From Pseudomonadota bacterium (GTDB lineage Bacteria > Pseudomonadota > Gammaproteobacteria > Steroidobacterales > Steroidobacteraceae), in contig JAFEFN010000003.1 of the NCBI GenBank assembly GCA_018240525.1, positions 124,001 through 188,000 of the forward strand: a stretch of 64,000 nt of DNA, in the 5' to 3' direction. Numbering within the stretch: the first letter of the stretch is position 1; each line of letters opens with the position of its first letter. The notes beneath the pieces are model-generated. The model was not told the DNA's origin, did not search any database, and worked only from the letters and a program-made list of their open reading frames with translations. A program made the translations under genes and the position numbers. Shown here piece by piece: positions 30,701 to 62,632 of this stretch.

Positions 30701-30718
30701 TCCCTCGTTTGGACGAGG
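30701..30718. repeat. 18-bp hairpin element, copy 1
   Basis: TCCCTCGTTTGGACGAGG with a perfect 6-bp stem (30703-30708 and 30713-30718) and 4-base loop. It differs by one base from the element at 37194-37211. Both lie upstream of PQQ-type dehydrogenase genes. Confidence 0.7.
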
Positions 30719-41942: not shown

Positions 41943-41952
41943 AGGATCCGCA

Positions 41953-48019: not shown

Positions 48020-48153
48020 GTGCCCCCCTCGTGCGAATAGTGATCAGGGCCAGTGTGCCCTGCGGTGCCCCCTGCCACGTCGCCCAAATGAACGATCACG
48101 GGACGCATGGCCGTGCGGGTATGCTGTGCCGCCCTCAAACGACGGAGCCCCAC

Positions 48154-48519
48154 ATGCCGAGCCAGGAAACCATGAAGGCCGCGATGCAGGCCTATATCGA
48201 TGCCTTCAACAGCGGCGACCCGGCCGCCGTGGTGGCCCTGTACGCCGCCGACGCGACGGTGGAGGACCCGGTGGGTTCCCCGCTCAAGCGCGGGCACGCG
48301 GAGATCGGCGCCTTCTATACCCATTCCATCGCCACGGGCGCCAAGCTGTCCCTGGACGCCCCGATCCGTGGCTCGCACGGCAACTGCGCGGCGATGGCCT
48401 TCAGCGCCCGGATCGGGCCGGTCACGGTACGCGTCATCGACATCATGACCTTCGACGAGGCCGGCAAGTTCACCAGCATGAAGGCCTACTTCGGGCCCGG
48501 CGACATCCTGCAGGGCTGA
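48154..48519 (+). CDS. ksi: Delta5-3-ketosteroid isomerase (KSI)
   Basis: A 121-residue NTF2-fold enzyme moving the 5,6 double bond of a 3-keto steroid to 4,5. Residue by residue it follows the Comamonas enzyme: Tyr14 (QAYIDAF), base Asp38 (ADATVEDPVG), Tyr55 (FYTHS) and the second oxyanion acid Asp96 (RVIDIMTF; Asp99 in Comamonas, three residues shifted). The dimer surface segment AYFG is present. ATG 48154 gives exactly this numbering. It diverges from KstD, the next pathway step for delta5 sterols after oxidation of the 3-OH. One of the clearest steroid indicators in the window. Confidence 0.9.
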   Translation: MPSQETMKAAMQAYIDAFNSGDPAAVVALYAADATVEDPVGSPLKRGHAEIGAFYTHSIATGAKLSLDAPIRGSHGNCAAMAFSARIGPVTVRVIDIMTFDEAGKFTSMKAYFGPGDILQG

Positions 48520-48521
48520 GC

Positions 48522-48983
48522 TCACTGCGGGCTCCAGCCCTTGGGCCCGGGGCCGAGCACGGCGAATGACCCCAGGTGCGCGCGGTTGAGCTTCACGCGC
48601 TGCGTGAGCCACCAGCGCCCGTCGCGGCACTCCCACAGGTCGCGGTACTCCCCGAGCGTCTGGAAGGTGAGCGCCGCCTTCTCCCCGGCCCCCAGGTGCA
48701 GGTCGCTCACGTAGCAACAACTGGTGGCGCGCGTCCCGTCGACCTCGACGGTGAGGTTGCCGAGCAGGTGCTGGGTCGGCCCGCAGTCATCCAGGAACGA
48801 GCGCATGACCTCGACCACCGCCGCCCGCCCGCGCACCGGCCCGGTGCCGAAGTCCGCCGTCGCCCCTGCCGCGATGATCCCGTCCAGGGCGGCCCACTCC
48901 CGCGCATCCATCGCGCGCGCAAAGGCGGCCAGCGCGCGCGCGATGTCGCGCTCGGCCAGCAGCACCTGCAGCGGGTCGTTCAC
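48522..48983 (-). CDS. SnoaL-like NTF2-fold protein
   Basis: A 153-residue NTF2-fold protein, start GTG 48983 overlapping the stop of the NADH:flavin oxidoreductase (GTGA). Segments: AFARAMDAREWAALDGIIA, GPTQHLLGNLTVEV, GRWWLTQRVKLNR. No KSI catalytic set (no Tyr14/Asp38 pairing) was found, so it is not a second isomerase. Last gene of the long ring-degradation operon; convergent with ksi, with a two-base gap. Confidence 0.78.
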   Translation of the reverse strand: MNDPLQVLLAERDIARALAAFARAMDAREWAALDGIIAAGATADFGTGPVRGRAAVVEVMRSFLDDCGPTQHLLGNLTVEVDGTRATSCCYVSDLHLGAGEKAALTFQTLGEYRDLWECRDGRWWLTQRVKLNRAHLGSFAVLGPGPKGWSPQ

Positions 48984-50218
48984 GAGGCGGCCGGCGTCGC
49001 GTTGAGCACGGCATCCCCGGGGGTGCCGAGCACGCACGAGGTCCCTCCCGGGGTGTACATCATCGCCACGCAACGGTTGCACGAGGTGCACCCGGAGGTT
49101 TGGATGCGCCCGCTCGCCAGGGCGTCGACGAAATCCGCCTGGTGGATCAGCACGCGGCCGAGCGTGATGGCATCGAAGCCCTCCGCCATCAGCTGCCCGA
49201 CGTTGGCGAGGCTCTTGACCCCGCCGAGGTAGGCGAGCGGCATCCGGGTGGCGGCGCGCGCCTTGCGCGAGTTCTCCAGCTGGTAGAGCTCGTGGAACTG
49301 GACGTTCTTCGGTTCGGTGAACTGCTGGATCAGCATCGCCAGTGCAACGATGGGGTTGCCGACCTGGGTGCGATTCTCCTTCGGGAAGGACGAGCCGAAC
49401 ATCGTGGTGATAGACTCGATGTTCAGGCCGGCGCTCAGGACCAGCAGGTGGGCCCCCGCGGCCTCCAGGAGGCGCGCGATCTCGGCGCCGTCCTCGGCGC
49501 TGTTGCCCCCACGCGTGCCCTCGGTGACGCTGATCTTGCAGACCACGGCCATGTCCTTGCCGACCGCCTCGAGCACGCGCTCGAGCACCTGCACCGGGTA
49601 GCGCGCGCGCCCGCGCACGTCCCCGCCGTAGGCATCGCGGCGGCGGTTGTACAGGGGCGAGAGGAACTGGCTGAGCAGGTAGCCGTGTCCCATGTGGATC
49701 TCGACCGCGTCGAAGCCGGCCTCGCGCGCGAGCTGCGCGCCGCGCACGAACTCCCCGGCGATGCGCTCCATGTCCGCGCTCGTCATGGCCTGGCGCCGCC
49801 ACTGCCCGCTCATGATGCCGACCTTGTTGAAGCCGCCGCTGGCGGACAGCGGCCTGGGGGTGTCCTGCGGCGGCACGAAGGTGAAGCAGCCCCCGTGGGT
49901 GATCTGCGCCGAGGCGGCCGCGTTGTGGCGGTGCACCGCCTCGGTCAGCACGCGCAGGTGCGGCACCTGGGCACGGTCGAGGGTGATCTGGTCGACGAAG
50001 GTGCGCCCGTCCGGGGCGACCGCGCAGTAGGCGACGGTTGTCATGCCGACGCCGCCGGCGGCGATGGCCTCGTGGAACTGCACCAGGCGCTTGGAGGCGG
50101 TGCCCCCCTTCGCGCTGCCCTCGTTGGTGGCGGACTTGATGAAGCGGTTGCGCAGGGTGAGCGGGCCGATGCGCAGCGGTGTGAAGGCGCGTTGCTCGTT
50201 GGGCTGCATCTGGATCAT
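48980..50218 (-). CDS. NADH:flavin oxidoreductase/Old Yellow Enzyme family
   Basis: A 412-residue FMN TIM-barrel reductase of the 2,4-dienoyl-CoA reductase/trimethylamine dehydrogenase branch (FTPLRIGPLTLRNRFIKSATNEG; HMGHGYLLSQFLSPLYNRR). A cysteine cluster at the C-terminus (TSGCTSCNRC and then SCVLG) suggests a [4Fe-4S] site. Unlike full-length dienoyl-CoA reductase (about 670 residues) it stops after the barrel. It would reduce an enone or dienoyl-CoA. Located after the two regulators in the ring-degradation operon. Confidence 0.84.
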   Translation of the reverse strand: MIQMQPNEQRAFTPLRIGPLTLRNRFIKSATNEGSAKGGTASKRLVQFHEAIAAGGVGMTTVAYCAVAPDGRTFVDQITLDRAQVPHLRVLTEAVHRHNAAASAQITHGGCFTFVPPQDTPRPLSASGGFNKVGIMSGQWRRQAMTSADMERIAGEFVRGAQLAREAGFDAVEIHMGHGYLLSQFLSPLYNRRRDAYGGDVRGRARYPVQVLERVLEAVGKDMAVVCKISVTEGTRGGNSAEDGAEIARLLEAAGAHLLVLSAGLNIESITTMFGSSFPKENRTQVGNPIVALAMLIQQFTEPKNVQFHELYQLENSRKARAATRMPLAYLGGVKSLANVGQLMAEGFDAITLGRVLIHQADFVDALASGRIQTSGCTSCNRCVAMMYTPGGTSCVLGTPGDAVLNATPAAS

Positions 50219-50242
50219 GGTGGCTCTCCTGCCGCGGCGCCC

Positions 50243-50746
50243 TCAGGCGGAGCGCGGCTTGGCGGTGGCACGGCGCACCGGGGTGATCTTCGCGGCCCGG
50301 TAGTCGTACTTGAGGGTCTTCACGGCAATCGAGGTCTCCACGTGGCGCACGCCCGGCAGCGCCAGGATGCGGTTGTTGGCGACCTCGACGATGTCCTCGA
50401 GCGCGGCGAACAGGCCCACCGCGAGGATGTCGAAGCGGCCGAGCATGAGGATGACGCAGCCGATCTCGGGCATGGCCGCGACCTGGCGGCTGACCTCCTG
50501 CAGCTCCCCGTGCTGGGCGAGGATGCCGATGAGGACCACCTTGGGGGAACCGGCGAAGGCGACGTTGGTGACCGCCGTCAGGCGGATGGCGCCGCCCGCC
50601 TCGAGGCGGTTGATGCGCCCGCGGATCGTGCCCTCGGTGACCCCGAGCTGGGCGGCGATCTGGCGGTTGGAGACGCGCGCATCCACGGTGAGCAGGTCGA
50701 CGATGCGCCGATCGAGCTCGTCCAGCACCGGCAGCCTGCTCGTCAT
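50243..50746 (-). CDS. Lrp/AsnC-family transcriptional regulator (second of pair)
   Basis: A 167-residue regulator: N-terminal HTH (DELDRRIVDLLTVDARVSNR, QLGVTEGTIRGRINRLE) and C-terminal RAM ligand domain. It has a 4-bp start/stop overlap with the neighbouring Lrp/AsnC gene, so two paralogues are made together. The operon setting suggests sensing of a pathway intermediate. Confidence 0.87.
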   Translation of the reverse strand: MTSRLPVLDELDRRIVDLLTVDARVSNRQIAAQLGVTEGTIRGRINRLEAGGAIRLTAVTNVAFAGSPKVVLIGILAQHGELQEVSRQVAAMPEIGCVILMLGRFDILAVGLFAALEDIVEVANNRILALPGVRHVETSIAVKTLKYDYRAAKITPVRRATAKPRSA

Positions 50747-51210
50747 GAGATCTGCGCCCGGTCGAAGTCGTACTTGATGACGTCCGCGGCGATCCCCGCG
50801 GAGAGCGCGCGGATGCCGCGGATCTTGCCGATGTCGCTGAGCAGGAAGGTCTCGAGCTCCTCGAGGTCGTGCAGCGCCACCAGGATCTCGATGTCGCGCG
50901 CCCCGGTGACCAGGTGCACGGCGAACACCTCCTCGAGGGCGGCCAGGTCGCGGGCGACCTCCTCCGCGGGGCGCCCCTGGACCTCGATGCCGATGGCCAT
51001 GAGCACCTTGTAGCCGAGCGCGGAGAAGTCGGTGACGGCCACCACGCGCATCGCGTTGACGCTCTCCAGGCGGCGGATGCGCGCCCCGACTGTGGCCGGG
51101 GAGATGCGCAGCGTGCGGGCGATGCGCTGGTTGGTCGCGCGCCCGTCGGCCTTGAGCGCCGCGATGATCCTGCGGTCGATATCGTCCAGTTCGTAGCTCT
51201 CTGCTGCCAT
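50743..51210 (-). CDS. Lrp/AsnC-family transcriptional regulator (first of pair)
   Basis: A 155-residue regulator with HTH (DDIDRRIIAALKADGRATNQ, TLRISPATVGARIRRLE) and RAM domain (VHLVTGARDIEILVALHDLEEL). Paralogue of the next gene. Both end in a short Tyr-Asp pattern (IKYDFDRA / LKYDYRAA). Co-transcribed 23 bp after the thiolase; may form mixed octamers with its partner. Confidence 0.87.
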   Translation of the reverse strand: MAAESYELDDIDRRIIAALKADGRATNQRIARTLRISPATVGARIRRLESVNAMRVVAVTDFSALGYKVLMAIGIEVQGRPAEEVARDLAALEEVFAVHLVTGARDIEILVALHDLEELETFLLSDIGKIRGIRALSAGIAADVIKYDFDRAQIS

Positions 51211-51233
51211 CTGTTCGGTCCCGCCCGCGCCGC

Positions 51234-52436
51234 TCAGTAGACCTCGAACAGGCCCGCCGCCCCCATGCCACCGGCCGTGCACATGGTGATGACGACCCAG
51301 CGCACCCCGCGGCGCCGGCCCTCGAGCAGGGCGTGGCCCACCAGGCGCGCGCCGCTCATCCCGTACGGATGACCGATGGCGATGGCCCCGCCGTCGACGT
51401 TGAATTTCTCGTTGTCGATGCCGAGCCGGTCCCGGCAGTACAGCGTCTGCACGGCGAAGGCCTCGTTGAGCTCCCACAGGCCGATGTCATCGACCTTCAG
51501 CCCATGCCGCGCCAGCAGCTTCGGCACGGCGAACACCGGGCCGATGCCCATCTCCTCGGGTGCGCAGCCGGCGACCGCCAGGCCGCGGTAGGCACCCAGG
51601 GGCTTCAGGTTGCGCTTCTCGGCCAGCCGCGCCTCCATCACCACCACCGCGGCGGCCCCGTCGGAGAGCTGCGAGGCGTTGCCGGCCGTGACGTTCTCGC
51701 CCTTCTTCACGATCTCGCCGTCGGCGAACACCGGCTCGAGCTTGGCAAGTCCCGCGAGCGTGGTGTCCGCGCGATAGCCCTCGTCCTGCTTGAGCAGCAC
51801 GTCCTCGTGGTGCGTGGCCCCGGTGGCCTTGTCGGTGATGAGCTTGCGGCTGGGCAGCGGCACGATCTCCGCGTCGAAGCGCCCGGCGGCATAGGCGGCC
51901 GCGACCCGCTGCTGGCTCTGCAGCGCGTAGCGGTCCTGTGCCTCGCGGCTGACCTTGTAGTGGCGCGCCACGACCTCGGCGGTCTCGATCATCGCCATGT
52001 ACATGTGCGGGGCGCCGGCCAGCACCGACTCGGAGCGCCCCCGGTACAGGTTCATGTGCTTGTTCTGCGTGAGGCTGATCGACTCGACCCCGCCGGCCAC
52101 GCACACGTCCATCCCATCGAGCACCACCTGCTTGGCGGCGGTGGCGATGGCCACCATGCCCGAGGCGCATTTACGGTCGAGCGTCATGCCGGCCACGGTC
52201 TGCGGCAGGCCGCCGCTGATGACGCTGAGGCGGCCGATGTTGTAGCCCTGCGCGCCCTGCTGCGTCGCGCAGCCGAGCACCAGGTCCTCGACCTCGGCGC
52301 CGTCGATGCCGGCGCGCCGCACGGCCTCGCGCACGGCGTGGCCGGAGAGCACCGGCGCATCGGTGTCGTTGAAGGCACCGCGGAAGGCCTTGCCGATCGG
52401 GGTCCGGGCCGTAGAGACGATCACCGCTTCACGCAC
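51234..52436 (-). CDS. Acetyl-CoA acetyltransferase-type thiolase
   Basis: A 400-residue thiolase. Nucleophile Cys90 (DRKCASGM), His356 ([11 protein letters not shown]) and Cys386 ([13 protein letters not shown]) are all present. It cleaves a 3-ketoacyl-CoA with CoA. It is a different branch from FadA6 (the DRQCGSSQQA type) at 54615-55769, so the operon holds two thiolases for two cleavages. Generic catabolic thiolase; the exact step is not assigned. Confidence 0.88.
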
Positions 52437-52449
52437 TGTCAGGGCTCCT

Positions 52450-52911
52450 TCAGAAATACAGCCGGCTCAGGGTATCGGCGACGCATACCGGCCTGTCGAC
52501 CCCCTCCGCCTCGATGCTCACGCGGATCTTCACCTGCACGGCCCCGCCGCCGAGGTCCTCGACGCCGAGGATCTCGGCGCGCGCGCGCACGCGCGTGCCG
52601 ACCTTCAGCGCCGCGGGGAAGCGCACCCGGTCGCAGCCGTAGTTGACGCCGTGCTTCATGCCCTCGGCGCGCGCCAGGTCCGGCAGGAAGTAGTTCACCA
52701 GCGCAAGGCTGAGGTAGCCGTGCGCGATGGTGGCCCCGAAAGGTCCCTGCGCGGCGCGGACCGGATCGACGTGGATCCACTGGTGGTCCCCGGTCGCCTC
52801 GGCGAACTTGTCGATGCGGTCCTGCTCGATGGTGAGCCAGTCGGTCGGCCCGATGGAGCGGCCGACGGCGGCCTGGTATTCCGCGGCGGAGTGAAAGACG
52901 GCGGCGGTCAT
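52450..52911 (-). CDS. MaoC-like (R)-enoyl-CoA hydratase
   Basis: A 153-residue single hot-dog-fold hydratase. The motif [18 protein letters not shown] carries the catalytic Asp/His, followed by [16 protein letters not shown]. It would hydrate an enoyl-CoA or dehydrate a hydroxyacyl-CoA. It lies between the thiolase and ipdF in the ring-degradation operon. MaoC-type hydratases are known in actinobacterial steroid degradation. Confidence 0.86.
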
Positions 52912-52922
52912 GGCGGTATCCT

Positions 52923-53711
52923 TCAGGCGCGCTGGCTGGAGACCGAGACGATCTCCCCGGTCATGTAGCTGGCAAGGTCGCTCGCCAGGAAGATGATCAC
53001 GTTGGCGATCTCCCAGGTCTCGGCGGTGCGCCCGAAGGCCTCGCGGCCCTTCAGCTCGGCGAGCAGCTCGTCGCTGGTCACGCGGTTGAGGAAGGCGTGC
53101 ATGGCGATGCTGGGGGCGACCGCGTTGATGCGCACGCCGTGCTCGGCCGCCTCGATCGCCGAGCAGCGCGTGAAGGCCATGACGCCCGCCTTGGCGGCCG
53201 CGTAGTGCGACTGCAGTGCCTGCGCGCGCCAGCCGAGCACGGAGGCATTGTTGACGATGGCCCCGCCGCGGTTGGCGTACATGTGCGGCAGGATCGCGCG
53301 GGTCATGCGAAAGACGCTGGTCAGGGAGACGTCGATGACCTTGGACCACTGCTCGTCGGTCATCTCGGTGACGGCGGCCGAGCCGCCCAGTCCCGCATTG
53401 TTGACCAGCACGTCGACGCGGCCCATGGCCTGCACCGCGCCCGCCACGAGGCCCTGCACGTCGCTCTCGCGCGTGACGTCGCACACCTTGGCGTCGACGG
53501 CGCCGGCTTTGAGCGCGCGCAGCCGCTCGACCGCCTCGCCGAGCCGGCGCTCGTGGATGTCGCTGACGAAGACGCGCGCGCCCTCCTCCAGCGCCCGCTT
53601 CGCGGTCGCAAAGCCGATGCCCGTGCCCGCCGCCGCGGTCACGAGCACGTTGCGGCCGGCGAGCAGGTTGCGCGCCGGCGGGTAGGCCGGGGTGTCCACA
53701 GGGGCGCTCAT
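52923..53711 (-). CDS. ipdF: IpdF-like short-chain dehydrogenase (5-hydroxy-HIC-CoA dehydrogenase)
   Basis: A 262-residue SDR. The sequence closely follows M. tuberculosis Rv3559c (IpdF): VLVTAAAGTGIG, IHERRLGE, DVSLTSVFRMTRA, the catalytic segment NNASVLGWRAQALQSHYAAAK and RCSAIEAAEHGVRINAVAPSIA. IpdF oxidises the 5-hydroxyl of a bicyclic C/D-ring CoA intermediate. It is coupled to the upstream SDR (ATGA). The match is from memory of the family. Confidence 0.82.
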   Translation of the reverse strand: MSAPVDTPAYPPARNLLAGRNVLVTAAAGTGIGFATAKRALEEGARVFVSDIHERRLGEAVERLRALKAGAVDAKVCDVTRESDVQGLVAGAVQAMGRVDVLVNNAGLGGSAAVTEMTDEQWSKVIDVSLTSVFRMTRAILPHMYANRGGAIVNNASVLGWRAQALQSHYAAAKAGVMAFTRCSAIEAAEHGVRINAVAPSIAMHAFLNRVTSDELLAELKGREAFGRTAETWEIANVIIFLASDLASYMTGEIVSVSSQRA

Positions 53712-54613
53712 GTGCCGTAGACCTTCTTCGGCGCCGGCCGCTCGGCGAGGAGCTTCCGGACCGCCGCGCCGACCTCGGCCGGCTGCCAGCGGGCCTGCTT
53801 GTCGATGGCCGGGCCGTCGCTCCAGCCGCGGTCGATCATGATCTTGCCGCCCTCGAGCTCGAACACGCAGCCGGTGACCTCGCGCGACTCGGCGCTGCCG
53901 AGCCACACCACCGCCGGCGCGATGTTGTCCGGGTCCTGCACGTCGAAGCCCGAGTCCGGGCGCTTCATCTTCTCGGCGAAGGCCTGCTCGGTCATGCGCG
54001 TGCGCGCCGCCGGCGCCAGCGCATTGGCGGTGATGCCGTAGCGGCCGAGCTCGGCCGCCTGCACGAGCGTCAGGGTGGCGATCCCGCCCTTGGCGGCCGA
54101 GTAGGCGCTCTGCGCCATGCTGCCGTTCAGTCCGGCGCCGGAGGAGGTGTTGATGATGCGCGCATCGACCGGCTTGCCCTGCTTGGCACAGGCCCGCCAG
54201 TAGTCCACCGCGTGGCGGGCGACGCAGAAGTGCCCGCGCAGGTGCACCTTCATGGTCGCATCCCACTCCTCCACCGTGGCGCTGACGAACATGCGGTCGC
54301 GCACGACGCCGGCGTTGTTCACCACCACGTCCAGGCCGCCGAAGTGCTCGATCGCCGTGGCGATGATCCGCCCGGCGCCGTCCCACTCCGAGACATCGTC
54401 GCCGTTGGCGACCGCCTCGCCGCCGGCGGAGCGGATCTCATCCACCACCGCCTGCGCGGTGGCCGTGTCGCGCCCCGCGCCCGCGAGGCTCGTCCCCAGG
54501 TCGTTGACCACGACCTTGGCGCCCTCCCGGGCGAAGGCCAGCGCGTACGAGCGCCCGAGCCCGCGGCCCGCACCGGTGATGACGACGATCCTTCCCGCGC
54601 AAACACCTGCCAT
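53708..54613 (-). CDS. SDR-family oxidoreductase of the MFE-2/Rv3548c type
   Basis: A 301-residue SDR: GAGRGLGRSYALAFAREGAKVVVNDLG, NNAGVVRDRMF, active site INTSSGAGLNGSMAQSAYSAAK, ending in a C-terminal tail. The pattern matches the 3-hydroxyacyl-CoA dehydrogenase domain of multifunctional enzymes and the mycobacterial Rv3548c family found in the same regulon. Likely oxidises a hydroxyacyl-CoA in beta-oxidation of the ring-opened product. Confidence 0.82.
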   Translation of the reverse strand: MAGVCAGRIVVITGAGRGLGRSYALAFAREGAKVVVNDLGTSLAGAGRDTATAQAVVDEIRSAGGEAVANGDDVSEWDGAGRIIATAIEHFGGLDVVVNNAGVVRDRMFVSATVEEWDATMKVHLRGHFCVARHAVDYWRACAKQGKPVDARIINTSSGAGLNGSMAQSAYSAAKGGIATLTLVQAAELGRYGITANALAPAARTRMTEQAFAEKMKRPDSGFDVQDPDNIAPAVVWLGSAESREVTGCVFELEGGKIMIDRGWSDGPAIDKQARWQPAEVGAAVRKLLAERPAPKKVYGT

Positions 54614-54614
54614 G

Positions 54615-55769
54615 TCAGAGCCTCTCGATGATCGTGACGTTGGCCTGGCCGCCGCCTTCGCACATGGTCTGCAGGCCGTAGCGTCCGCCACGCCGTTCCA
54701 GCTCGTGCAGCAGGGTCGTCATCAGTCTCGCGCCGGTGGCCCCCAGCGGGTGCCCGAGGGCGATCGCGCCGCCGTTCACGTTCACGCGCGACATGTCCGC
54801 GTCCAGGTCGTGCTGCCAGGCGAGCACGACGGAGGCGAAGGCCTCGTTGATCTCGACCAGGTCGATGTCGGAGAGCTTCATGCCCGCCCGCGCGAGCGCG
54901 TACTGGGTGGCCGGGATCGGCGCGGTCAGCATCCACACCGGGTCCGCGCCGCGCACCGAGAGGTGGTGGATGCGGGCGCGCGGCTTGAGCTTGTGGCGGC
55001 GCACCGCGTCCGCCGAGGCGATGAGGAGCGCGGCCGAGCCGTCGGCGATCTGGCTGGAGACCGCGGCGGTGATGCGCCCGTCCGGGGACAGGGGGGCGAG
55101 CGTCGCCATCTTCTCGAGCGTCGTGCCGGCGCGCGGCGTCTCGTCCTGGGTGAGCCCGTTCAGGGGGGCGATCTCGGCGGTGAAGTGGCCCCTGGCGATG
55201 GCATCGATGGCGCGCCGGTTGCTTTCCAGCGCGAACTCCTCCATCGCCTGCCGGCTGATGTTCCACTTCTCGGCGATCATCTGCGCGGAACGGAACTGCG
55301 AGACCTCCTGCGTGCCGTAGCGGGCGCGCCAGCCGGGGGAGCCGCTGAAGGGGTCGCTCATGCCCAGCTCGCGTCCGGCGACCATCGCCGCCCCGATCGG
55401 GATCTGGTTCATGGTCTGCACGCCGCCGGCGATCACCAGGTCCTGCGTGCCGCTCATCACCGCCTGCGCGGCAAAGTGCACCGCCTGCTGCGAGGAGCCG
55501 CACTGCCGGTCGACCGTGGTCCCCGGCACGTGGTCCGGGAAGCCGGCCACCAGCCAGCAGGTGCGCGCGATGTCGCCGGCCTGCGTGCCGAGCTGGTCCA
55601 CGCAGCCGAAGACCACGTCGTCGATCTGCGCGGGATCGACCCCGGTGCGCTCCACGAGGGCCTTGATGGCGTGGGCGCCGAGGTCGGCGGCATGGATGCC
55701 GGCCAGCGTCCCTTTTTTCTTGCCGGTCGGGCTGCGCACGGCGCCGATAATGTAGGCCTCGTTGCTCAT
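54615..55769 (-). CDS. fadA6: FadA6-like thiolase of C/D-ring degradation
   Basis: A 384-residue thiolase that closely follows M. tuberculosis FadA6: GKKKGTLAGIHAADLGA, TVDRQCGSSQQA (Cys90), QISDGSAALL-type region, NGGAIALGHPLGATGA (His340), and the C-terminal YGLQTMCEGGGQANVTIIERL pattern (Cys370). FadA6 performs thiolysis of the dioxo-dicarboxylyl-CoA formed after both rings are opened. Eleven bp downstream of an acyl-CoA dehydrogenase. Confidence 0.88.
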   Translation of the reverse strand: MSNEAYIIGAVRSPTGKKKGTLAGIHAADLGAHAIKALVERTGVDPAQIDDVVFGCVDQLGTQAGDIARTCWLVAGFPDHVPGTTVDRQCGSSQQAVHFAAQAVMSGTQDLVIAGGVQTMNQIPIGAAMVAGRELGMSDPFSGSPGWRARYGTQEVSQFRSAQMIAEKWNISRQAMEEFALESNRRAIDAIARGHFTAEIAPLNGLTQDETPRAGTTLEKMATLAPLSPDGRITAAVSSQIADGSAALLIASADAVRRHKLKPRARIHHLSVRGADPVWMLTAPIPATQYALARAGMKLSDIDLVEINEAFASVVLAWQHDLDADMSRVNVNGGAIALGHPLGATGARLMTTLLHELERRGGRYGLQTMCEGGGQANVTIIERL

Positions 55770-55780
55770 CAGTGGATCCT

Positions 55781-56839
55781 CTAGGCGGTTCGTTCGAAAG
55801 TCTGGTCCGGGCCGAGCGCGAAGGCTTCCTCGCACACCAGGCCCTGCAGGCGCCGGGAATGGAAGCTGTGGTCGCCCCAGGCGCCGGCGAGCGCCCAGGC
55901 GCGCTTCATGTAGAAGTGCAGGTCGACCTCCCAGGAGTAGCCCATCGCCCCGTGCACCTGGATGGCCATCCGTGCAGCGAGATCGGCCGCATCCGCAGCG
56001 GCAAGCTTGGCATGCGAGAGGGCCGCGAGCGAGCGGGCGCCGGTGCGCCCCACGTGCGCCACCGCCGCGTACACCACCGCACGCGCGAACTCCAGCTTCA
56101 CCGCGACGCTCGCGAGGTGGTGCTTGATCGCCTGGTAGGCGCCGATGGGCTTGCCGAACTGCTCGCGCTCCTTTGCATAGGCCACGCTGATGGCGAGCAT
56201 GCGCGCGCCCACCCCGAGGCTCTGCGCCGCGACGTACAGGGCGGCGCGACTGAGCACGTTCTCCCCGAGGGCACGGGCGACCGCGCCCCTGCACAGGGGC
56301 GCCGCGGAGGCGCGCACGACCGGGCGCCCCAGCCGGCGGCCGGCATCGATCGAGGGCTCGACGATCACGTCCACGCCGGCCGCCTCGATGAGGTAGGCCG
56401 CATCCGACTCGCACAGCAGCCAGTGCGTGGGCGCCGGCGGCAGGTTGGCCAGGGGATTGCGCGAGTGGGCCAGCGCGAGGCGCGCTTCCCCCGATGCCAG
56501 CTGCGGCAGCAGCGCCTTGACCGAGGGCAGGCCGGCGTGTGCCCCGAGCGCCGGCAGCGCGACGGCCGCCTGCTCGACCAGGGGTTCGGGCAGGGCTGCA
56601 TGCCCGGCTTCCTCCGCCAGCAGGATGAAGTCGGCATCGGCCAGTCCCAGCCCCCCGTCGCCTTCGGCGGCCAGCACCCCGAACAGGCCCAGTTCCGCCA
56701 GGCGCGCCCAGCGTGCTTCCGCCTGCGTGTCGCGGCCGTCGTACAGCGCGCGCAGCTGCTCGGGCGCGCAGATGTCCGCGGTGAGCTCGCGGAACGCCCC
56801 CGCCATCAGCTGCTGCTCCTCGGTGAAGGTGAAGTCCAT
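55781..56839 (-). CDS. ipdE2: Acyl-CoA dehydrogenase, short subunit (IpdE2/FadE33-like)
   Basis: A 352-residue acyl-CoA dehydrogenase homologue shorter than usual, with a weak nucleotide/acyl cleft but a normal C-terminal helical domain (EREQFGKPIGAYQAIKHHLA, IQVHGAMGYSWEVDLHFYMK). In actinobacterial steroid degradation IpdE1 and IpdE2 (FadE30, FadE33) form a heteromeric enzyme; the short subunit lies beside a full-length one here with a 3-bp gap, supporting the same arrangement. FadE32 is an alternative orthologue. Confidence 0.72.
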   Translation of the reverse strand: MDFTFTEEQQLMAGAFRELTADICAPEQLRALYDGRDTQAEARWARLAELGLFGVLAAEGDGGLGLADADFILLAEEAGHAALPEPLVEQAAVALPALGAHAGLPSVKALLPQLASGEARLALAHSRNPLANLPPAPTHWLLCESDAAYLIEAAGVDVIVEPSIDAGRRLGRPVVRASAAPLCRGAVARALGENVLSRAALYVAAQSLGVGARMLAISVAYAKEREQFGKPIGAYQAIKHHLASVAVKLEFARAVVYAAVAHVGRTGARSLAALSHAKLAAADAADLAARMAIQVHGAMGYSWEVDLHFYMKRAWALAGAWGDHSFHSRRLQGLVCEEAFALGPDQTFERTA

Positions 56840-56842
56840 GGG

Positions 56843-58006
56843 TCAGGCGCGCGGCAGGCCGAGCAGCCGCTCGGCAATGAGGTTGCGCTGGATCTCGTTG
56901 GTCCCGGCGTAGATGGGGCCGGCGAGGGAGAACATGAAGCCCTCGAGCCAGCTCGGGTCGAGGCACTCGGGGGACCCGGCGGCCAGCTCGGCGCGGTCAC
57001 CGAGCAGGCTCATCGCGGTGCGATGCAGCTCCAGGTCCAGCTCCGACCAGAAGATCTTGTTGAGGCTCGCCTCGACCCCGATGCTGCCGCCGGCCATCAG
57101 GCGGCTCGCGGTGCGGTAGGTGTTGAGCGCGTAGGCCTCGGCGTCCATCCACGCCTGCGCCACCCGCGCCCCCAGGGCCGGATCGGCGCCGGCGGCCTGG
57201 CGGCGCCACAGCTGCACCAGCTTCTGCGCGGCCACCTGGAAACGCGCCGGGCTGCGCAGCATCAGCCCGCGCTCAAAGCCCGCGGTCGCCATCGCGATCT
57301 GCCAGCCCGCGCCGGCATCGCCCAGGCGGTTGGCGACCGGCACGCGGGCGTCCTCGAAGAATATCTCGGCGAAGCCGGGCTCGCCGTGGATCTGGCGGAT
57401 GCCGCGGACGCGCACGCCGGGGTGCCGCAGCGGCACCAGGATGAAGCTCAGCCCCTTGTGGCGCTCGGAACCGGGCTCGGTGCGGAAGATCCCGAAGCAC
57501 CAGTCGGCGAAGGCGGCGCGCGAGGACCAGATCTTGTGGCCCTTGAGCACGTAGTGATCGCCGTCGCGCACGGCCGTGGCGCGCAGTGCGGCCAGGTCCG
57601 AGCCGGACTGCGGCTCCGACCAGCCCTGGGCCCAGATCTCCTCGCCGGCGGCCATGCGCGGCAGGAAGCGCGCCTTCTGCTCGGGCGTGCCGAACTCCAT
57701 GAGGGTGGGGCCGAGCAGGAAGATGCCGTTCTGGTTCACGCGCAGCGGCGCGTTCGCGCGGTAGTACTCTTCCTCGAAGATCAGCCAGTCGATCAGGCTG
57801 GCGCCGCGGCCCCCGTATTGCTGCGGCCAGGTGATCATCCCCCAGTTGCCCGAGGCGAGCGTGCGCTCCCACTCGCGGTGCTGGGCGAAGCCCTCCTCGC
57901 TCTCCAGCGTCTTCAGCGCCCTGGCCGGCACGTGCGCCTGCATCCACGCACGCACCTCGGCGCGGAAGCGCTGCTGGGCGGGCGTGAAGTTGAAATCCAG
58001 TGCCAT
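56843..58006 (-). CDS. ipdE1: Acyl-CoA dehydrogenase, large subunit (IpdE1/FadE30-like)
   Basis: A 387-residue acyl-CoA dehydrogenase: MITWPQQYGGRGASLID, QGWSEPQSGSDLAALRATAV, HKIWSSRAAFADWCFGIFRT, and C-terminus YAGTNEIQRNLIAERLLGLPRA. In M. tuberculosis FadE30 with FadE33 dehydrogenates 5-hydroxy-HIP-CoA. The two adjacent genes support a heteromer. FadE31 is the alternative orthologue. Confidence 0.76.
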   Translation of the reverse strand: MALDFNFTPAQQRFRAEVRAWMQAHVPARALKTLESEEGFAQHREWERTLASGNWGMITWPQQYGGRGASLIDWLIFEEEYYRANAPLRVNQNGIFLLGPTLMEFGTPEQKARFLPRMAAGEEIWAQGWSEPQSGSDLAALRATAVRDGDHYVLKGHKIWSSRAAFADWCFGIFRTEPGSERHKGLSFILVPLRHPGVRVRGIRQIHGEPGFAEIFFEDARVPVANRLGDAGAGWQIAMATAGFERGLMLRSPARFQVAAQKLVQLWRRQAAGADPALGARVAQAWMDAEAYALNTYRTASRLMAGGSIGVEASLNKIFWSELDLELHRTAMSLLGDRAELAAGSPECLDPSWLEGFMFSLAGPIYAGTNEIQRNLIAERLLGLPRA

Positions 58007-58014
58007 GGGGGCCG

Positions 58015-58764
58015 TCAGTACTTCGCGGTGTTCTTGTCTTTGACGAAGGCGTCGCGCGCCTTCTGCGAGTCCTCGTGCAGGTACATCTCCAGCGTGAAGC
58101 CCTGCTCGAAGCGGTAGCCATGGTCGACATCGCGCGGCTCGAGGCCGTTGAGCGCCTCCTTGGCCAGCACCAGCGCGCGGCGGCTCTTGGCGGCGATGAC
58201 TTCCGCGAAGGCGCGCGCCTCCTCGAGCAGCTTCGCCGCCGGCACCAGCTTCTCCGCCGCCCCGAGGCGGTAGGCCTCGGCGGCCGGGATCCGGCCGCCG
58301 GTGAAGAACGCGGCCCGCACCTTGTGCAGCGGGAACATGCGCGAGAGGTGCGAAGCGCCACCCATGGCGCCGCGGTCGACCTCGGGCAGCGAGAAGTAGG
58401 CATCCTCGGCGGCGATGACCACATCGCTCGCCCCGCAGATGCCGATGCCGCCACCGATGACGAAGCCGTGCACGGCGGTCACCACCGGGACCTCGCAGCC
58501 GCGCACCGCGCGGAAGGTGCGGAAGTTGCCGCGGTTCAGGTCGACGATGCGCTCCGGGTGCTGCTGCATCTCCTTGATGTCCACGCCGGCGCAGAAGCCC
58601 TTGCCCTCTGCGCGCACCAGCACGCAGCGCACCTCGGGATGGGCACCGAGCGCCTCGATGAGGGCCGGCAGCTCGTTCCAGGCCTTGCTGTCCAGGGCGT
58701 TGACCGGCGGGTGATCGAGGATGAGCTCGCCGAGGTGTCCGCGGATCTCAGTGCGCGTGGCCAT
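58015..58764 (-). CDS. echA20: EchA20-like ring-D hydrolase (crotonase fold)
   Basis: A 249-residue crotonase. Close to M. tuberculosis EchA20: RAEGKGFCAGVDIKEMQ, VTAVHGFVIGGGIGICGASD and FSLPEVDRGAMGGASHLSR. EchA20 hydrolyses a cyclic beta-diketone CoA to open steroid ring D. Eight bp precedes the ipdE1-like gene, as expected for the operon. Confidence 0.86.
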   Translation of the reverse strand: MATRTEIRGHLGELILDHPPVNALDSKAWNELPALIEALGAHPEVRCVLVRAEGKGFCAGVDIKEMQQHPERIVDLNRGNFRTFRAVRGCEVPVVTAVHGFVIGGGIGICGASDVVIAAEDAYFSLPEVDRGAMGGASHLSRMFPLHKVRAAFFTGGRIPAAEAYRLGAAEKLVPAAKLLEEARAFAEVIAAKSRRALVLAKEALNGLEPRDVDHGYRFEQGFTLEMYLHEDSQKARDAFVKDKNTAKY

Positions 58765-58799
58765 GACCGTCCCCTTTAAGGATGTAGTGTGCGCGAAGC

Positions 58800-59870
58800 C
58801 TACTGTGGTGCGGCGTCGCCGCGCAGCGCCGCCAGGCGCCCGCGCGCCTCGCGCACGATCCCCTGGATGAGCTCCTCGCAGCTGGGCAGGTCGCTCAGGC
58901 GCCCGGCCACCAGTCCCGTGGCCAGCAGGCCGCGCTGCGGCTCCCCCGAGATCATCGAGCGCTGGAACAGGACCGGCGCGATGGCCGCCATGAGCGACTG
59001 CCCGAGCGACATGTCGCTGCCATGGCCCATCTTGCGCGCCGCGGACAACATCTCGGCAATGCTGGCGCCGGTGAGGCGCTTGAGCTGCCAGGCGCTGGTG
59101 AGCGCCAGGTACAGCATGCGCGCGCGGCCGGCCTTCTCGATCTGCGACAGGGTCTCGTTGCGGATCATGCGCTGCGGCAGGCCGTCCACCTTGGTCGTGA
59201 CCAGGATGTCCTCCGTGCCGGCCCGGGTGTAGCGCTGCTTCGTGACCTCGGGCACCGGACAGTCGCGCGTCATCAGAAAGCGCGTGCCCATGGCGATGCC
59301 CTGCGCGCCGTAGGCGAGCGCGGCGGCGAGCCCGCGGCCGTCGGCAAAGCCCCCGGCGGCGATCACCGGCACCTTCACGGTGTCCAGCACCTGCGGCAGC
59401 AGCACGGTGCTGGCCACCGAGCCGGTATGCCCGCCGCCCTCGCCGCCCTGCACGGTGATCATGTCGACGCCGAGCTCGACCATCTTCTTGGCGTGCTTGA
59501 CTGCCCCGACCGTGGGGACGCAGGCGATGCCGGCATCGCGGAAGCGCGCGATCATCTTCTTGTCCGGGCCGCGCCCGAAGCTCACCGCCGTCACCTTGGC
59601 ATCGATCAGGGTCTGCACGATGCGCTCGGCGCCGGGCTGGAACATGTGGAAGTTCACCCCGAACGGCGCGCTCGTCATCGAGCGCACGCGCTCGATCGCC
59701 GGGCCCACTTCCTCCGGGCTGAGCACCGCGGCGGCCAGGAAGCCGAAGCCGCCCGCGTTGCAGGTGGCGGCCACCAGCTCCGGCCGCGCCACCCAGCCCA
59801 TCGCCGTCTGGATGATCGGGTAGCGGCAGCCGAGGCGCTGCGTGAGCGCAGTGCTGAGCGGGTCGCTCAC
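58800..59870 (-). CDS. ipdC: IpdC-like flavin oxidoreductase (nitronate-monooxygenase family)
   Basis: A 356-residue FMN TIM-barrel protein related to nitronate monooxygenases: PIIQTAMGWVARPELVAATC, GEGGGHTGSVAST, VIAAGGFADGRGLAAALAYGA. IpdC introduces a double bond in a HIC-CoA intermediate in actinobacterial steroid degradation. GTG 59870 overlaps the ipdB stop (GTGA), as in other ipdABC operons. True nitronate monooxygenase activity is possible but the context argues otherwise. Confidence 0.86.
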   Translation of the reverse strand: MSDPLSTALTQRLGCRYPIIQTAMGWVARPELVAATCNAGGFGFLAAAVLSPEEVGPAIERVRSMTSAPFGVNFHMFQPGAERIVQTLIDAKVTAVSFGRGPDKKMIARFRDAGIACVPTVGAVKHAKKMVELGVDMITVQGGEGGGHTGSVASTVLLPQVLDTVKVPVIAAGGFADGRGLAAALAYGAQGIAMGTRFLMTRDCPVPEVTKQRYTRAGTEDILVTTKVDGLPQRMIRNETLSQIEKAGRARMLYLALTSAWQLKRLTGASIAEMLSAARKMGHGSDMSLGQSLMAAIAPVLFQRSMISGEPQRGLLATGLVAGRLSDLPSCEELIQGIVREARGRLAALRGDAAPQ

Positions 59871-60676
59871 GAGGGCTTGCCGGCCGCGCGCGGCGCGAAC
59901 GCGGAAGGGTTGCCCTTGATGACGCTGGCGCGCAGGTTGTGCGGGTCCAGGCGCCGGATGATCGCCAGCTGCTCGGCCGTCGGCCCCGCGGTGGTGGGCA
60001 GCGTGCCGGCTGCCTCCAGCGGGAACCCGGTGGCCGCCCGCACCTGCTCGAGGCTCACGCCCGGGTGCAGCGAGCGCACGCGCACCGCGTGGTTCGCCCC
60101 GCCGAAGTCCATGACGCACAGGTCGGTGACGATCAGGCGCAGGTCGACGTGCCGGTCGCTGACCCCTTGGGGCCAGCGTGCCGGGTTGTAGCCGACGCCG
60201 CCGACCACGTCGACTTCGCCCGCCACGAAGACCCGCGGGCCGTGGTTGGGCACGAACATCGAGTTCGGGTGCGAGATGCTGTTGCCCGGCAGGCCGCGCA
60301 TGCCGAGCATCTGCACCTTCGGCTTGAACGGGTCGCCGATGCCGGAGAGATTGGTCTGCCCGAAGCGGTCGATCTGGATCGGCCCGATCATGACGTGGCG
60401 CTTGCCGCCCCACACGCAATCGAACACGCGCGCGAAGGACATGGCGCCGGAGAAGCGCGGCACGTAGCTGCCGCGCGGTCCGAGCGGCACCGGCTCCTCG
60501 ACGAGGTAGGCCTCCGCGTCGGTCATCATGAGCTCGGGCGAGTGGGTGAGCTTGGCGAGGCTGGCCCCGAGGCGCGGCACGACGCCGATGCCCGAGGCGA
60601 GCAGCTCGCCGTTGCCGCGCCAGGCCTCCGAGGCGGCGACGACGAGCAGTTCCGCGAGGGTGAAGTCTGCGCTCAT
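59867..60676 (-). CDS. ipdB: IpdB, CoA-transferase-like ring-C hydrolase beta subunit
   Basis: A 269-residue CoA-transferase family I beta-type protein: GKRHVMIGPIQIDRFGQTNLSGIGDPF, MRGLPGNSISHPNS, VDLRLIVTDLCVMDFGG. IpdAB looks like a CoA-transferase but hydrolyses COCHEA-CoA to open steroid ring C. Only two bases separate its ATG from the ipdA stop, and it overlaps ipdC. Confidence 0.88.
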   Translation of the reverse strand: MSADFTLAELLVVAASEAWRGNGELLASGIGVVPRLGASLAKLTHSPELMMTDAEAYLVEEPVPLGPRGSYVPRFSGAMSFARVFDCVWGGKRHVMIGPIQIDRFGQTNLSGIGDPFKPKVQMLGMRGLPGNSISHPNSMFVPNHGPRVFVAGEVDVVGGVGYNPARWPQGVSDRHVDLRLIVTDLCVMDFGGANHAVRVRSLHPGVSLEQVRAATGFPLEAAGTLPTTAGPTAEQLAIIRRLDPHNLRASVIKGNPSAFAPRAAGKPS

Positions 60677-60678
60677 GC

Positions 60679-61560
60679 TCAGAACACCGGCGGCGGCAGG
60701 GAGCCGAGCCGCGCCGCACCGCCCTGGCGCTCCAGGTACTGTGCCTCGGGAAGGGCCACGAAGTCGGCGACGTAGCGCGACCAGCCGTCCGCCTCGCCCG
60801 CCAGGGTGGTGTAGGCCTTCAGGTGTTCCATGTCCCAGCCGTAGGCGGGCGGGTTGGAGGTGGGGTGGGCACCGAAGCGCGCCGGCACCACCCCCGTGAC
60901 GTAGCTGCGCTCGACGATGTTGAAGCGCGCGTCGGCGCTGTATTTCAGGTCCAGCCGCTCGCTGAGCTCCTCGCAGCTGGCGTAGGTGCGTGCCGCGGCG
61001 CGCGCGAACAGCTCGTCGAAGTACGGGTCGGGCCCGAGCGTCTGCACGTTGCCGAGGCGGTCGGCGCGGTCGACGTGGATGAGGGCCACGTCCAGGTTCA
61101 GCGCCGGCATCGCCAGCAGCACCTCGCCGTCGGCGTACGGGGACTTCACGGTGCGGAAGTCGGGATTGAGCTTCATGACATCCGTGGCCAGCCCCACCCG
61201 GGTCGGCAGGAACGGCACGCGCATCGCCGCGGCGCGCAGGCCCCACTGCAAGAGGCCCTCGTCGAGTTCGTGCGCCTCGATGCTGCCCGCTTCGCGGGCC
61301 TTGCGGAACCAGGGCTCCACCGGGATGGCATCGAGCGAGACGAAGCCGTAATACAGGCGGCGCACCTTGCCGGCCGCGCACAGCATGCCGACGTCCGGAC
61401 CGCCGTAGGCGACCACGGTCAGGTCCCTGAGGTTCGAGCGCAGGATCTCGCGCACCAGCGCCATGGGCTTGCGCCGCGGGCCCCAGCCGCCGATGCCGAT
61501 CGTCATGCCATCGTGCAGCCCGGCGATGACGGCGCCCGCACTCAGTGTCTTGTCGAACAT
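60679..61560 (-). CDS. ipdA: IpdA, CoA-transferase-like ring-C hydrolase alpha subunit
   Basis: A 293-residue CoA-transferase alpha-type protein: MTIGIGGWGPRRKPMALVREILR, VVAYGGPDVGMLCAAGKVRRLYYGF, then the IEAHELDEGLLQWG segment that by my memory carries the catalytic Glu (Glu105 in M. tuberculosis). Partner of IpdB directly downstream. The start at 61560 gives a family-like N-terminus; earlier starts overlap the hsaC stop. Confidence 0.87.
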   Translation of the reverse strand: MFDKTLSAGAVIAGLHDGMTIGIGGWGPRRKPMALVREILRSNLRDLTVVAYGGPDVGMLCAAGKVRRLYYGFVSLDAIPVEPWFRKAREAGSIEAHELDEGLLQWGLRAAAMRVPFLPTRVGLATDVMKLNPDFRTVKSPYADGEVLLAMPALNLDVALIHVDRADRLGNVQTLGPDPYFDELFARAAARTYASCEELSERLDLKYSADARFNIVERSYVTGVVPARFGAHPTSNPPAYGWDMEHLKAYTTLAGEADGWSRYVADFVALPEAQYLERQGGAARLGSLPPPVF

Positions 61561-61571
61561 CGCGGCCGGCC

Positions 61572-62465
61572 CTACGCGGGCGGCGGTGACCAGCGATGGC
61601 CCCACAGGTCGCCGATGACGCTCTGCGTGGGCACCCAGGTCTCCCAGTCCGGCGTGATGCCATCGCAGCCGAACTCCAGGTCGAAGCCGCCCGGGGTGCG
61701 CACGTAGAAGGACACCATGTAGTCGTTGGAGTGCTTGCCCAGGGACGAGGAGATGTGCGCGCCGCTGGCGATGCAGCGGTCGAGCGCATAGCCCACATCA
61801 TCCAGCGACTTCGCCTCCAGCATGATGTGCACCGCGCCCGAGGGCGCAGGCATCCCCACCAGCGCAAGGCTGTGGTGACGGCGGCAGGCAGCATGCATGA
61901 AGTGGATACCGAGCTTGGGATCGGCCGGGTTCGGGCTCATCTGCAGCCACATCTCATCGGTGTCGGCGAAGCCCAGGCGCTGGTAGAAGGCACGGACCTC
62001 GGCGAGCTGCAGCGCCGGCAGCACCGCGTGCCCCATCCCGAGCTCACCGGCCACGAAGCCGGAAAGCCCGCGCGGCGAGGCGAACGGGGCATAGTCGTAG
62101 GTGCGACCGTGGAAGAGCTCGAGCTGGTTGCCGGCGGGATCCGCGCAATAGGCGATCTGGCGCACGGCACGGTTGGCCGCCTCACCGTCGCTGCCGGCGC
62201 GCACGGCAACGCCGGCGGCCTTGAGGGTGGCGATCGCCGCCGCCAGCTCCGCGGCGTCCCTGAACTCCCAGCCGCAGCTGACGAAGCGGTCCTGCTTCCC
62301 CGGCACCACGGCGATGCGGAACGGGCGCTCATCGATGCGGAAGCGAACGCTGCCATCGGCCCCGGCCGGCCCTTCCATCAAGCCCAGGGTATCCACGGCG
62401 AACTTGCGCCAGGCACCCACATCGGTCGCTTCGACGACCACATAGCCAAGGGATCTGACTGTCAT
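61572..62465 (-). CDS. hsaC: HsaC/TesB extradiol dioxygenase (3,4-DHSA ring-A cleavage)
   Basis: A 297-residue type I extradiol dioxygenase that cleaves the aromatised ring A (3,4-DHSA or analogue) meta to the hydroxyls. It follows M. tuberculosis HsaC/C. testosteroni TesB: MTVRSLGYVVVEATD start, metal ligands His146 (GMGHAVL), His197 or His198 (RRHHSLALV) and Glu264 (GGFDLEFG), His245 and the LWGH C-terminal block. It starts the operon, 11 bp before ipdA. hsaA/B and hsaD, which act directly before and after it, are not in the window. Confidence 0.9.
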   Translation of the reverse strand: MTVRSLGYVVVEATDVGAWRKFAVDTLGLMEGPAGADGSVRFRIDERPFRIAVVPGKQDRFVSCGWEFRDAAELAAAIATLKAAGVAVRAGSDGEAANRAVRQIAYCADPAGNQLELFHGRTYDYAPFASPRGLSGFVAGELGMGHAVLPALQLAEVRAFYQRLGFADTDEMWLQMSPNPADPKLGIHFMHAACRRHHSLALVGMPAPSGAVHIMLEAKSLDDVGYALDRCIASGAHISSSLGKHSNDYMVSFYVRTPGGFDLEFGCDGITPDWETWVPTQSVIGDLWGHRWSPPPA

Positions 62466-62632
62466 AGGTGTTGGGGACTTCTAATATGAGTCGTTGCCGG
62501 CGGCGGCCTTTACAGGCGCGTCCGGGTCGGGAAGTTATTTCGCGGCCTGAATTGCGAGATTAAGCCCGCCTAGCAGCCGTTGCAAGCATAATTCGCTGAA
62601 TTTTCGCTTCAGGATTACGCAAATCGCCGATA
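62466..62632. promoter_or_regulatory. Promoter region of the hsaC-ipd operon
   Basis: 167 bases between cysQ and hsaC, both minus strand. The minus strand shows TTGCAA at 62580-62585, 17 bases, TAATCT at 62557-62562 as a weak sigma-70 pair. The AT-rich stretch 62585-62620 includes a repeated TTCGCT. No TetR-type palindrome such as the KstR2 motif is seen. Confidence 0.4.

Follow-up and report, generated by a model that had tools for sequence, protein, structure and literature searches.

The stretch analysed here, referred to as the window, comprises 64,000 nucleotides (C11:124001-188000; C11 and C5 denote contigs of the same genome) from a Steroidobacteraceae assembly of 4.31 Mb in 17 contigs. 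Between 48522 and 62465 (62441 if the called GTG start is used), gene calling places sixteen genes in a row on the minus strand, headed by a gene for an HsaC-like dioxygenase, followed by ipd genes and including two tandem genes for Lrp/AsnC-type regulators. With a probability of roughly 0.7, the locus is read as a row of same-strand genes that follows the conserved proteobacterial tesB-scd (hsaC-ipd) order, is predicted to degrade methylhexahydroindanedione propanoate (HIP; the last two steroid rings) and carries a tandem Lrp/AsnC pair that likely regulates the pathway. The features of the row, from its 5' side, are as follows (CoA, coenzyme A; SDR, short-chain dehydrogenase/reductase; OYE, old yellow enzyme; NMO, nitronate monooxygenase; COCHEA, carboxyethyl-methyl-oxocyclohexene carboxyl).

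62466..62632, minus strand: likely promoter region, the 167-bp gap 5' of hsaC, partly conserved with locus L045
61572..62465, minus strand: hsaC/tesB-like type I extradiol dioxygenase, ATG start at 62465 (best solved relative 2zi8/2zyq, 233.3 bits)
60679..61560, minus strand: ipdA (scdL1), COCHEA-CoA hydrolase alpha subunit (6co6_A, 270.6 bits)
59867..60676, minus strand: ipdB (scdL2), beta subunit (6co6_B, 183.1 bits; Ala at the CoA-transferase glutamate position)
58800..59870, minus strand: ipdC (scdK), NMO/FabK-type oxidoreductase (PF03060, 262 bits; conserved place)
58015..58764, minus strand: echA20 (scdY), crotonase (PRK07938, 338.2 bits, passing the cut-off of 260; named from its conserved place)
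56843..58006, minus strand: FadE31-like (scdM1) acyl-CoA dehydrogenase alpha subunit (after-EchA20 alpha clade, 100/100)
55781..56839, minus strand: FadE32-like (scdM2) acyl-CoA dehydrogenase beta subunit (after-EchA20 beta clade, 100/100)
54615..55769, minus strand: fadA6 (scdF), thiolase (PRK07801, 684.7 bits, passing the cut-off of 591; named from its conserved place)
53708..54613, minus strand: ipdF (scdG), SDR (PRK07791, 460.6 bits, passing the cut-off of 373; named from its conserved place)
52923..53699, minus strand: SDR, Rv3548c/scdE-like (PRK07831, 435.4 bits, passing the cut-off of 336)
52450..52911, minus strand: MaoC hydratase, scdD-like (PF01575, 81.2 bits)
51234..52424, minus strand: second thiolase, PRK07108-like (556.8 bits, under the cut-off of 615)
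50743..51210, minus strand: Lrp2, first of the tandem Lrp/AsnC pair (PF13404 and PF01037, over cut-off)
50243..50746, minus strand: Lrp1, second of the pair (PF13404 and PF01037, over cut-off; overlaps Lrp2 by 4 bp)
48980..50218, minus strand: OYE-family flavoenzyme, candidate Sor1/SteD-like double-bond reductase (PF00724, 181.3 bits)
48522..48983, minus strand: SnoaL_4 protein, candidate Hsh1/SteC-like hydroxysteroid dehydratase (PF13577, 85.7 bits)

PRK07801, PRK07791, PRK07831 and PRK07938 are generically named models, and the gene names fadA6, ipdF, Rv3548c-like and echA20 were taken from the conserved order. The Rv3548c/scdE-like name follows cluster lists in PMC13101464 and PMC5380842 (here and below, papers are cited from the available part of their text), and the second thiolase is perhaps scdJ, a guess from gene order.

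The initial annotation had described sixteen tightly packed minus-strand genes and a compact HIP row headed by hsaC, and gene calling agrees on both points: the widest gap is 35 bp (58765-58799), and several neighbouring genes overlap by 4 bp. Fourteen of its sixteen labels were right in kind, the pair it had called ipdE1/E2-like being misassigned, and its hsaC start (ATG, 62465) is preferred over the GTG called at 62441 because conservation in the nearest relative, L045, extends to the ATG and its codons. The row is bounded on its 3' side by a plus-strand SnoaL gene (48154-48519); on its 5' side, 167 bp lie between the hsaC ATG and cysQ (62633), and this gap is the likely promoter region. A consensus scan of 48000-63000 returned no sigma-70-like promoter (0.6 expected), and five terminator-like sites were found on the two strands of this interval, compared with 3.5 expected from shuffles. 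The cysC-cysQ genes adjoining hsaC are also kept in L045. We consider it unlikely that the row is read as two or more transcripts, such as an hsaC-ipdF core and a thiolase-Lrp-OYE-SnoaL tail. Such a division is favoured by the relatives, most of which retain the core, with Lrp, OYE or SnoaL either placed elsewhere or lacking; however, no intergenic gap in the row exceeds 35 bp, the sole terminator-like site on its strand in 48000-63000 is intragenic (57386-57367), with none outside genes, and in the nearest relative (stretch L215) the row is preserved as far as Lrp2, Lrp1 and OYE.

Named genomes were scanned with an IpdA alignment, and the best 80 of 583 loci were kept. In 58 of these 80, hsaC lies less than 200 bp upstream of ipdA on the same strand, and L089, where the two genes overlap, brings the number to 59; of the remaining loci, 20 have no hsaC match above 100 bits on that strand of the examined stretch and one has no room for it. 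The window shares this adjacency, with a gap of 11 bp on the same strand, as well as the ipdA-ipdB-ipdC-echA20-FadE31-FadE32-fadA6-ipdF order common to many loci. Gene calling was sparse in low-G+C stretches. Comamonas testosteroni (L099, its genes called with the window's codon table) is among the loci with the adjacency, and consecutive locus tags are published for strain CNB-2 (TesB, 1275, PMC4810484; IpdA, 1276, PMC5380842); moreover, a 2004 title cited in PMC13101464 refers to an 18-gene stretch running from tesB to tesR. The initial annotation had proposed that the ring-A dioxygenase is newly fused to the C/D-ring operon. This novelty is rejected, because 59 of the 80 loci and the tags 1275/1276 already show the usual order. 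A new fusion breaking the mycobacterial KstR/KstR2 split is thus hardly credible, even though the sixteen genes are truly packed together and, in actinobacteria, the KstR2 regulon is that of the ipd genes (PMC5380842). The row is a rearranged variant of a known operon type, and its layout is not new.

The order tesB, scdL1L2, scdK, scdY, scdM1M2, scdF of the C. testosteroni TA441/CNB-2 tesB-to-tesR (steA-tesR) cluster is the same as that of the window (L099; PMC13101464); however, the window lacks scdN, its scdC1C2 (IpdE1/E2) genes lie outside the row, its OYE and SnoaL genes stand at the 3' end instead of upstream of tesB, and its row includes the tandem Lrp pair. The KstR2 regulon of Mycobacterium and Rhodococcus holds counterparts of ipdA, ipdB, ipdC, echA20, fadE31, fadE32, fadA6 and ipdF (PMC5380842, Table 1), but hsaC heads the window row, and by profile searches none of the sixteen genes is kstR2-like (TetR). 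The unusual part of the row is the two Lrp genes, which the initial annotation had listed without comment.

Lrp1 and Lrp2 each contain an AsnC-type helix-turn-helix and a RAM ligand domain. When 50 IpdA-bearing genomes (50 of the 80 loci) were searched with Lrp2, 21 gave matches at E<=1e-15, and the Lrp2-Lrp1 tandem was confirmed in 18. Twenty-nine stretches chosen for holding an Lrp2 match were fetched, 25 from these 18 genomes and four from genomes of the control draws described below, and Lrp2 is followed by Lrp1 on one strand in all 29; of the 21 genomes with matches, G384, G386 and G394, which had one weak match each, were used as outgroups. The gap between the genes ranges from -11 to +18 nt and is -4 in 18 of the 29 measured (28 pair stretches and one control stretch). 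Neighbours of the pair include KshA, HsaA, HsaC, HsaD-G, FadD3, IpdE1/E2 and IpdAB. A strict steroid marker, by cut-offs that the analyst set, occurs within 10 kb in 19 of the 29 pair stretches, compared with 5 of 20 control stretches taken from the same contigs and scored over their whole length (p = 0.006); one of these controls (L192) held a further diverged Lrp pair. The idea of the pair arose from L045, L057, L096, L101 and L104, which are stretches L215, L165, L214, L213 and L164 among the 29, and with these five omitted the marker is present in 14 of 24 (p = 0.027). L096 and L074 are metagenome-assembled genomes (MAGs) titled Klebsiella pneumoniae and Bordetella parapertussis, and the titles are probably wrong, as both carry steroid clusters.

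The Lrp2 threshold of 1e-20 was fixed after the 50-genome search and before two control draws, which overlap and both include the window's own genome. In the class draw (369 genomes) Lrp2 was found at E<=1e-20 in three genomes, all within the five having IpdA above 300 bits, and in the phylum draw (398 genomes) in three, all within the eight having IpdA at E<=1e-60. With the own genome excluded, the comparison is 2/4 versus 0/364 (Fisher 8.9e-5) and 2/7 versus 0/390 (Fisher 2.7e-4). Among 72,556 plasmid records, 22 match Lrp2 (E<=1e-15) and 32 match IpdA (E<=1e-40), with 19 matching both. Gene neighbourhoods were inspected in four of the 22 Lrp2 plasmids: by annotation, a Novosphingobium sp. 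P6W plasmid has adjacent Lrp genes after an hsa-like cluster and pNL2 has two adjacent-Lrp pairs. Besides pEP1, which is weighed below, the Lrp2 plasmids without IpdA are a second TomTYG65 plasmid and one on which a lone Thermomicrobium Lrp gene neighbours genes for an aminotransferase and an agmatinase.

In a tree of the Lrp proteins, from which the Lrp2 of L172 was left out, all 31 Lrp1 rows are separated from all 30 Lrp2 rows (94/96, slightly short of the starred level), and three unrelated Lrp rows branch off at the base of the Lrp2 side. Just three true outgroup rows were available, because L153, intended as an outgroup, proved to contain the very genes of the L192 pair. The distance matrices of Lrp1 and Lrp2 correlate with r = 0.91 over 29 loci, a value reached in 0 of 2000 permutations, and the histories of the two genes are parallel; much of this correlation can be explained by shared genome history alone. 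Taken together, these data indicate that the pair recurs with steroid-degradation genes beyond chance, and the association is well supported.

Lrp/AsnC proteins classically respond to amino acids, and it is possible, if doubtful, that the pair governs amino-acid or general nutrient metabolism and merely hitchhikes in catabolic clusters. Several observations speak for this reading or against the proposed steroid role. No pair was confirmed in 32 of the 50 IpdA genomes, and therefore the pathway does not generally need it; 10 of the 29 pair stretches have no strict marker within 10 kb; and on pEP1, which has no ipdA match, two such Lrp genes stand side by side at a distance of a few kb from toxin-antitoxin genes. 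The 19 plasmids with both Lrp2 and IpdA are all from Sphingobium or Novosphingobium, eleven of them from one set of Tom strains, and both the genome-level p-values and the Lrp1/Lrp2 distance correlation are inflated by shared ancestry. Furthermore, two contiguous Lrp/AsnC genes of Sphingobium sp. Chol11 (NCHOL11_RS15865/RS15860), which lie in a bile-acid cluster, have been suggested to act in amino-acid regulation (PMC12882949); that pair comes from a single strain and a side-chain cluster, and is likened to the window pair by its description. Against mere hitchhiking, Lrp2 at E<=1e-20 was found in none of the 364 and 390 control genomes without IpdA, a count for which scoring was limited to the best 9-10 Lrp candidates of each genome, and the recurrent neighbours of the pair are KshA, HsaA, FadD3 and IpdE1/E2.

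A link between the pair and the row through a shared operator was not obtained, which also counts against a regulatory role. Word and palindrome searches found no operator upstream of hsaC: the AATT-centred and TTGCG words of the hsaC promoter were not found again ahead of other genes in 184 kb of the genome's own sequence, and the 8-base words common to the hsaC upstream regions of the window and of G017, a genome of the same family, are by estimate within chance for such lengths. De novo searches returned palindromes of width 12 (49.4 versus 27.3-37.6 in six shuffles) and 15 (55.1 versus 33.5-47.2 in six shuffles), which are G+C-rich and were set aside, and one of width 16 (68.7 versus 42.3-50.6 in shuffles). 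The last, like TCGTCCATWTGGACGA, occurs at window positions 30701, 37194, 39220, 42439 and 48080, upstream of a TonB receptor gene, a PQQ-domain gene, a KstD-like gene, kshA and a divergent pair, and has 10 strong matches in 453 kb of Lrp-pair stretches compared with one in 400 kb of controls. However, it has no site upstream of hsaC, and it is not assigned to the Lrp pair because its window sites precede kshA, the KstD-like gene and the TonB receptor gene instead.

The enzymes of the row are consistent with the predicted pathway. The best solved relative of the window HsaC, 2zi8/2zyq, we take to be HsaC of Mycobacterium tuberculosis, and H146, H213 and E264, presumably the 2-His-1-Glu iron ligands by HsaC numbering, are invariant across 36 HsaC-type sequences. 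The protein scores 283.9 bits with the NCBIfam HsaC model NF045631, under its curated cut-off of 450; this model may be tuned to actinobacterial HsaC. A second HsaA and HsaC lie in tandem with a divergent KshA, near a sulfatase, at C5:346955-350421 (L003:11955-15421), and this stretch, with 58-61% G+C compared with 69.5% in the window, is likely an acquired island. That the C5 HsaC is the true steroid enzyme and the window HsaC cleaves another catechol appears improbable. The existence of the second set points that way, as does the low NCBIfam score of the window copy, although the C5 copy is likewise under the cut-off; in the HsaC tree, where 26 ipdA-adjacent copies are included and adjacent and non-adjacent copies are not separated, the C5 copy stands beside two sphingomonad copies not adjoining ipdA (84/65), inside a clade also holding ipdA-adjacent copies. 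However, the window copy has the higher HsaC score (295.2 versus 273.4 bits), stands at the conserved place and groups with the L045 and G017 copies (99/96).

The best matches of IpdA and IpdB are chains of 6co6/6con (270.6 and 183.1 bits at best; next other chains, 93.8 and 52.1 bits), which we take to be actinobacterial IpdAB and whose records name them only as CoA-transferase subunits. Best matches in unrelated families, which the initial annotation had named as evidence against its reading, were not seen for IpdAB. A54 of IpdB aligns to Gly57 of the solved IpdB chain, so that the glutamate of true CoA-transferases is replaced, and the IpdAB hydrolase is described as having lost the catalytic glutamate of the CoA-transferase beta subunit (PMC5380842). 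In viral contigs, 46 pattern matches were obtained, none of which was confirmed as an IpdA relative.

The dehydrogenase pair at 55781-58006 is not IpdE1/IpdE2, as both subunits fall in the FadE31/FadE32 clades (100/100) of a tree of 73 rows, with at most 16 per group, in which L094 (second alpha group) falls outside and several long branches are flagged. Compared with the structures 6wy8/6wy9, presumably IpdE1-IpdE2, the alpha subunits of the window and of the genome's other copy are not separated (176.9 and 163.1 bits), whereas the beta subunits are, both by 6wy8_A (92.8 and 164.3 bits) and by the NCBIfam IpdE2 model (124.6 versus 211.4; cut-off 450). That other copy, at C11:88367-90720 about 82 kb from the row, groups with the after-ipdF pair (100/100 alpha, 96/91 beta), which was taken as IpdE1/IpdE2. 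The window pair is named FadE31/FadE32 because its clade is the pair that follows echA20 elsewhere, so named by the CNB-2 numbering (1280 EchA20, 1281 FadE31, 1282 FadE32; PMC5380842).

The expectation that fadD3 and hsaA/B/D lie elsewhere in the genome was confirmed at C11:97-106 kb, about 67-75 kb from the row on the same contig, with HsaB as a candidate only (a flavin reductase, C11:97058-97594). FadD3 (C11:99303-100880) spans L006/L007, and its call rests on a 291-residue piece with 443.2 bits (cut-off 657). At C11:100857-105865, HsaE and HsaD run in one direction and HsaA, HsaG and HsaF in the other; HsaG and HsaF pass their models, and the best matches of HsaA (357.8/450), HsaD (175.9/400) and HsaE (361.9/408.8) are under cut-off. 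Absence of the hsa genes from the genome was rejected, since they were found on C11 and C5. The gene for the hydratase ScdN usually stands between ipdB and ipdC; by gene calling, none lies there in the window, as is also the case in L045 and L096; G017 has ScdN at this place (L216). A clear ScdN orthologue was not found in the assembly, which is 97.5% complete, the best own-genome match to the same-family ScdN having 33% identity.

The SnoaL and OYE genes at the 3' end are candidates for a dehydratase and reductase like Hsh1/Sor1 of Sphingobium and Caenibius and SteC/SteD of C. testosteroni, of which SteD presumably takes part in 12-hydroxyl removal. Just upstream of tesB, C. testosteroni has a weakly SnoaL-like gene (25%, E = 4e-4) and an OYE just 30% identical to that of the window. 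By analogy with SteC and Hsh1/Sor1, which have been assigned to 12-hydroxyl removal (PMC13101464, PMC12882949), we infer a putative role of the window pair in removing the 12-OH of bile-acid-derived intermediates. Two adjacent SnoaL_4 genes directly upstream of kshA (window 41469-42405) are also candidate hydroxysteroid dehydratases.

Elsewhere in the window, two Sulfotransfer_3 proteins stand beside steroid genes (33364-34524 and 45141-46313), and the second has relatives close to steroid genes in L053, L084, L162, L215 and L218. The window also holds a second Rieske/KshA_C oxygenase (20940-21941) and a 777-aa open frame (17436-19769) whose coding score is weak and whose third-position G+C is lower (0.82).

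In the proposed pathway, HsaC would cleave the aromatised A-ring supplied by HsaA/B, and FadD3 would make HIP-CoA, the genes for HsaA/B and FadD3 lying at a distance of about 70 kb; IpdE1/IpdE2, about 82 kb away, would act on the HIP-CoA. IpdF, IpdC, EchA20 (D-ring opening), IpdAB (C-ring opening), FadA6 and FadE31/FadE32 would follow, in the order proposed for actinobacteria, and the OYE and SnoaL proteins would strip the 12-OH. Lrp1 and Lrp2, encoded by overlapping genes, would likely assemble into a single hetero-oligomeric regulator, with a steroid-derived acid or CoA ester as its signal.

The available text of PMC6895838 reports tesR-like genes only in C. testosteroni and no regulator near the Novosphingobium tardaugens cluster, and AraC and TetR genes have been proposed for the bile-salt clusters of N. 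tardaugens (PMC12882949). Among the literature matches listed, from a search outside which most subscription papers lie, PMC12882949 alone brings Lrp/AsnC proteins and steroid degradation together. From sequence comparison, the Lrp pair is predicted to regulate steroid catabolism in those proteobacteria that have neither TesR nor KstR-type regulators. The fuller proposal, for which we see about an even chance, is that the tandem, co-inherited pair is the long-missing regulator dedicated to 9,10-seco steroid catabolism where proteobacteria lack TesR, and that it serves lineages ranging from sphingomonads and Acidocella as far as SAR86 and a myxococcal MAG. The pair would be a hetero-oligomer that senses a steroid breakdown product, not an amino acid, and would play the part of KstR/KstR2 in actinobacteria.

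Outside Comamonas and the actinobacteria, the regulation of steroid catabolism is much less clear than the gene order. If the proposal is true, the Lrp pair would offer a two-gene target and could serve as a marker when marine and soil genomes are mined for steroid degraders; it would also be a case of an Lrp pair with a non-amino-acid effector.

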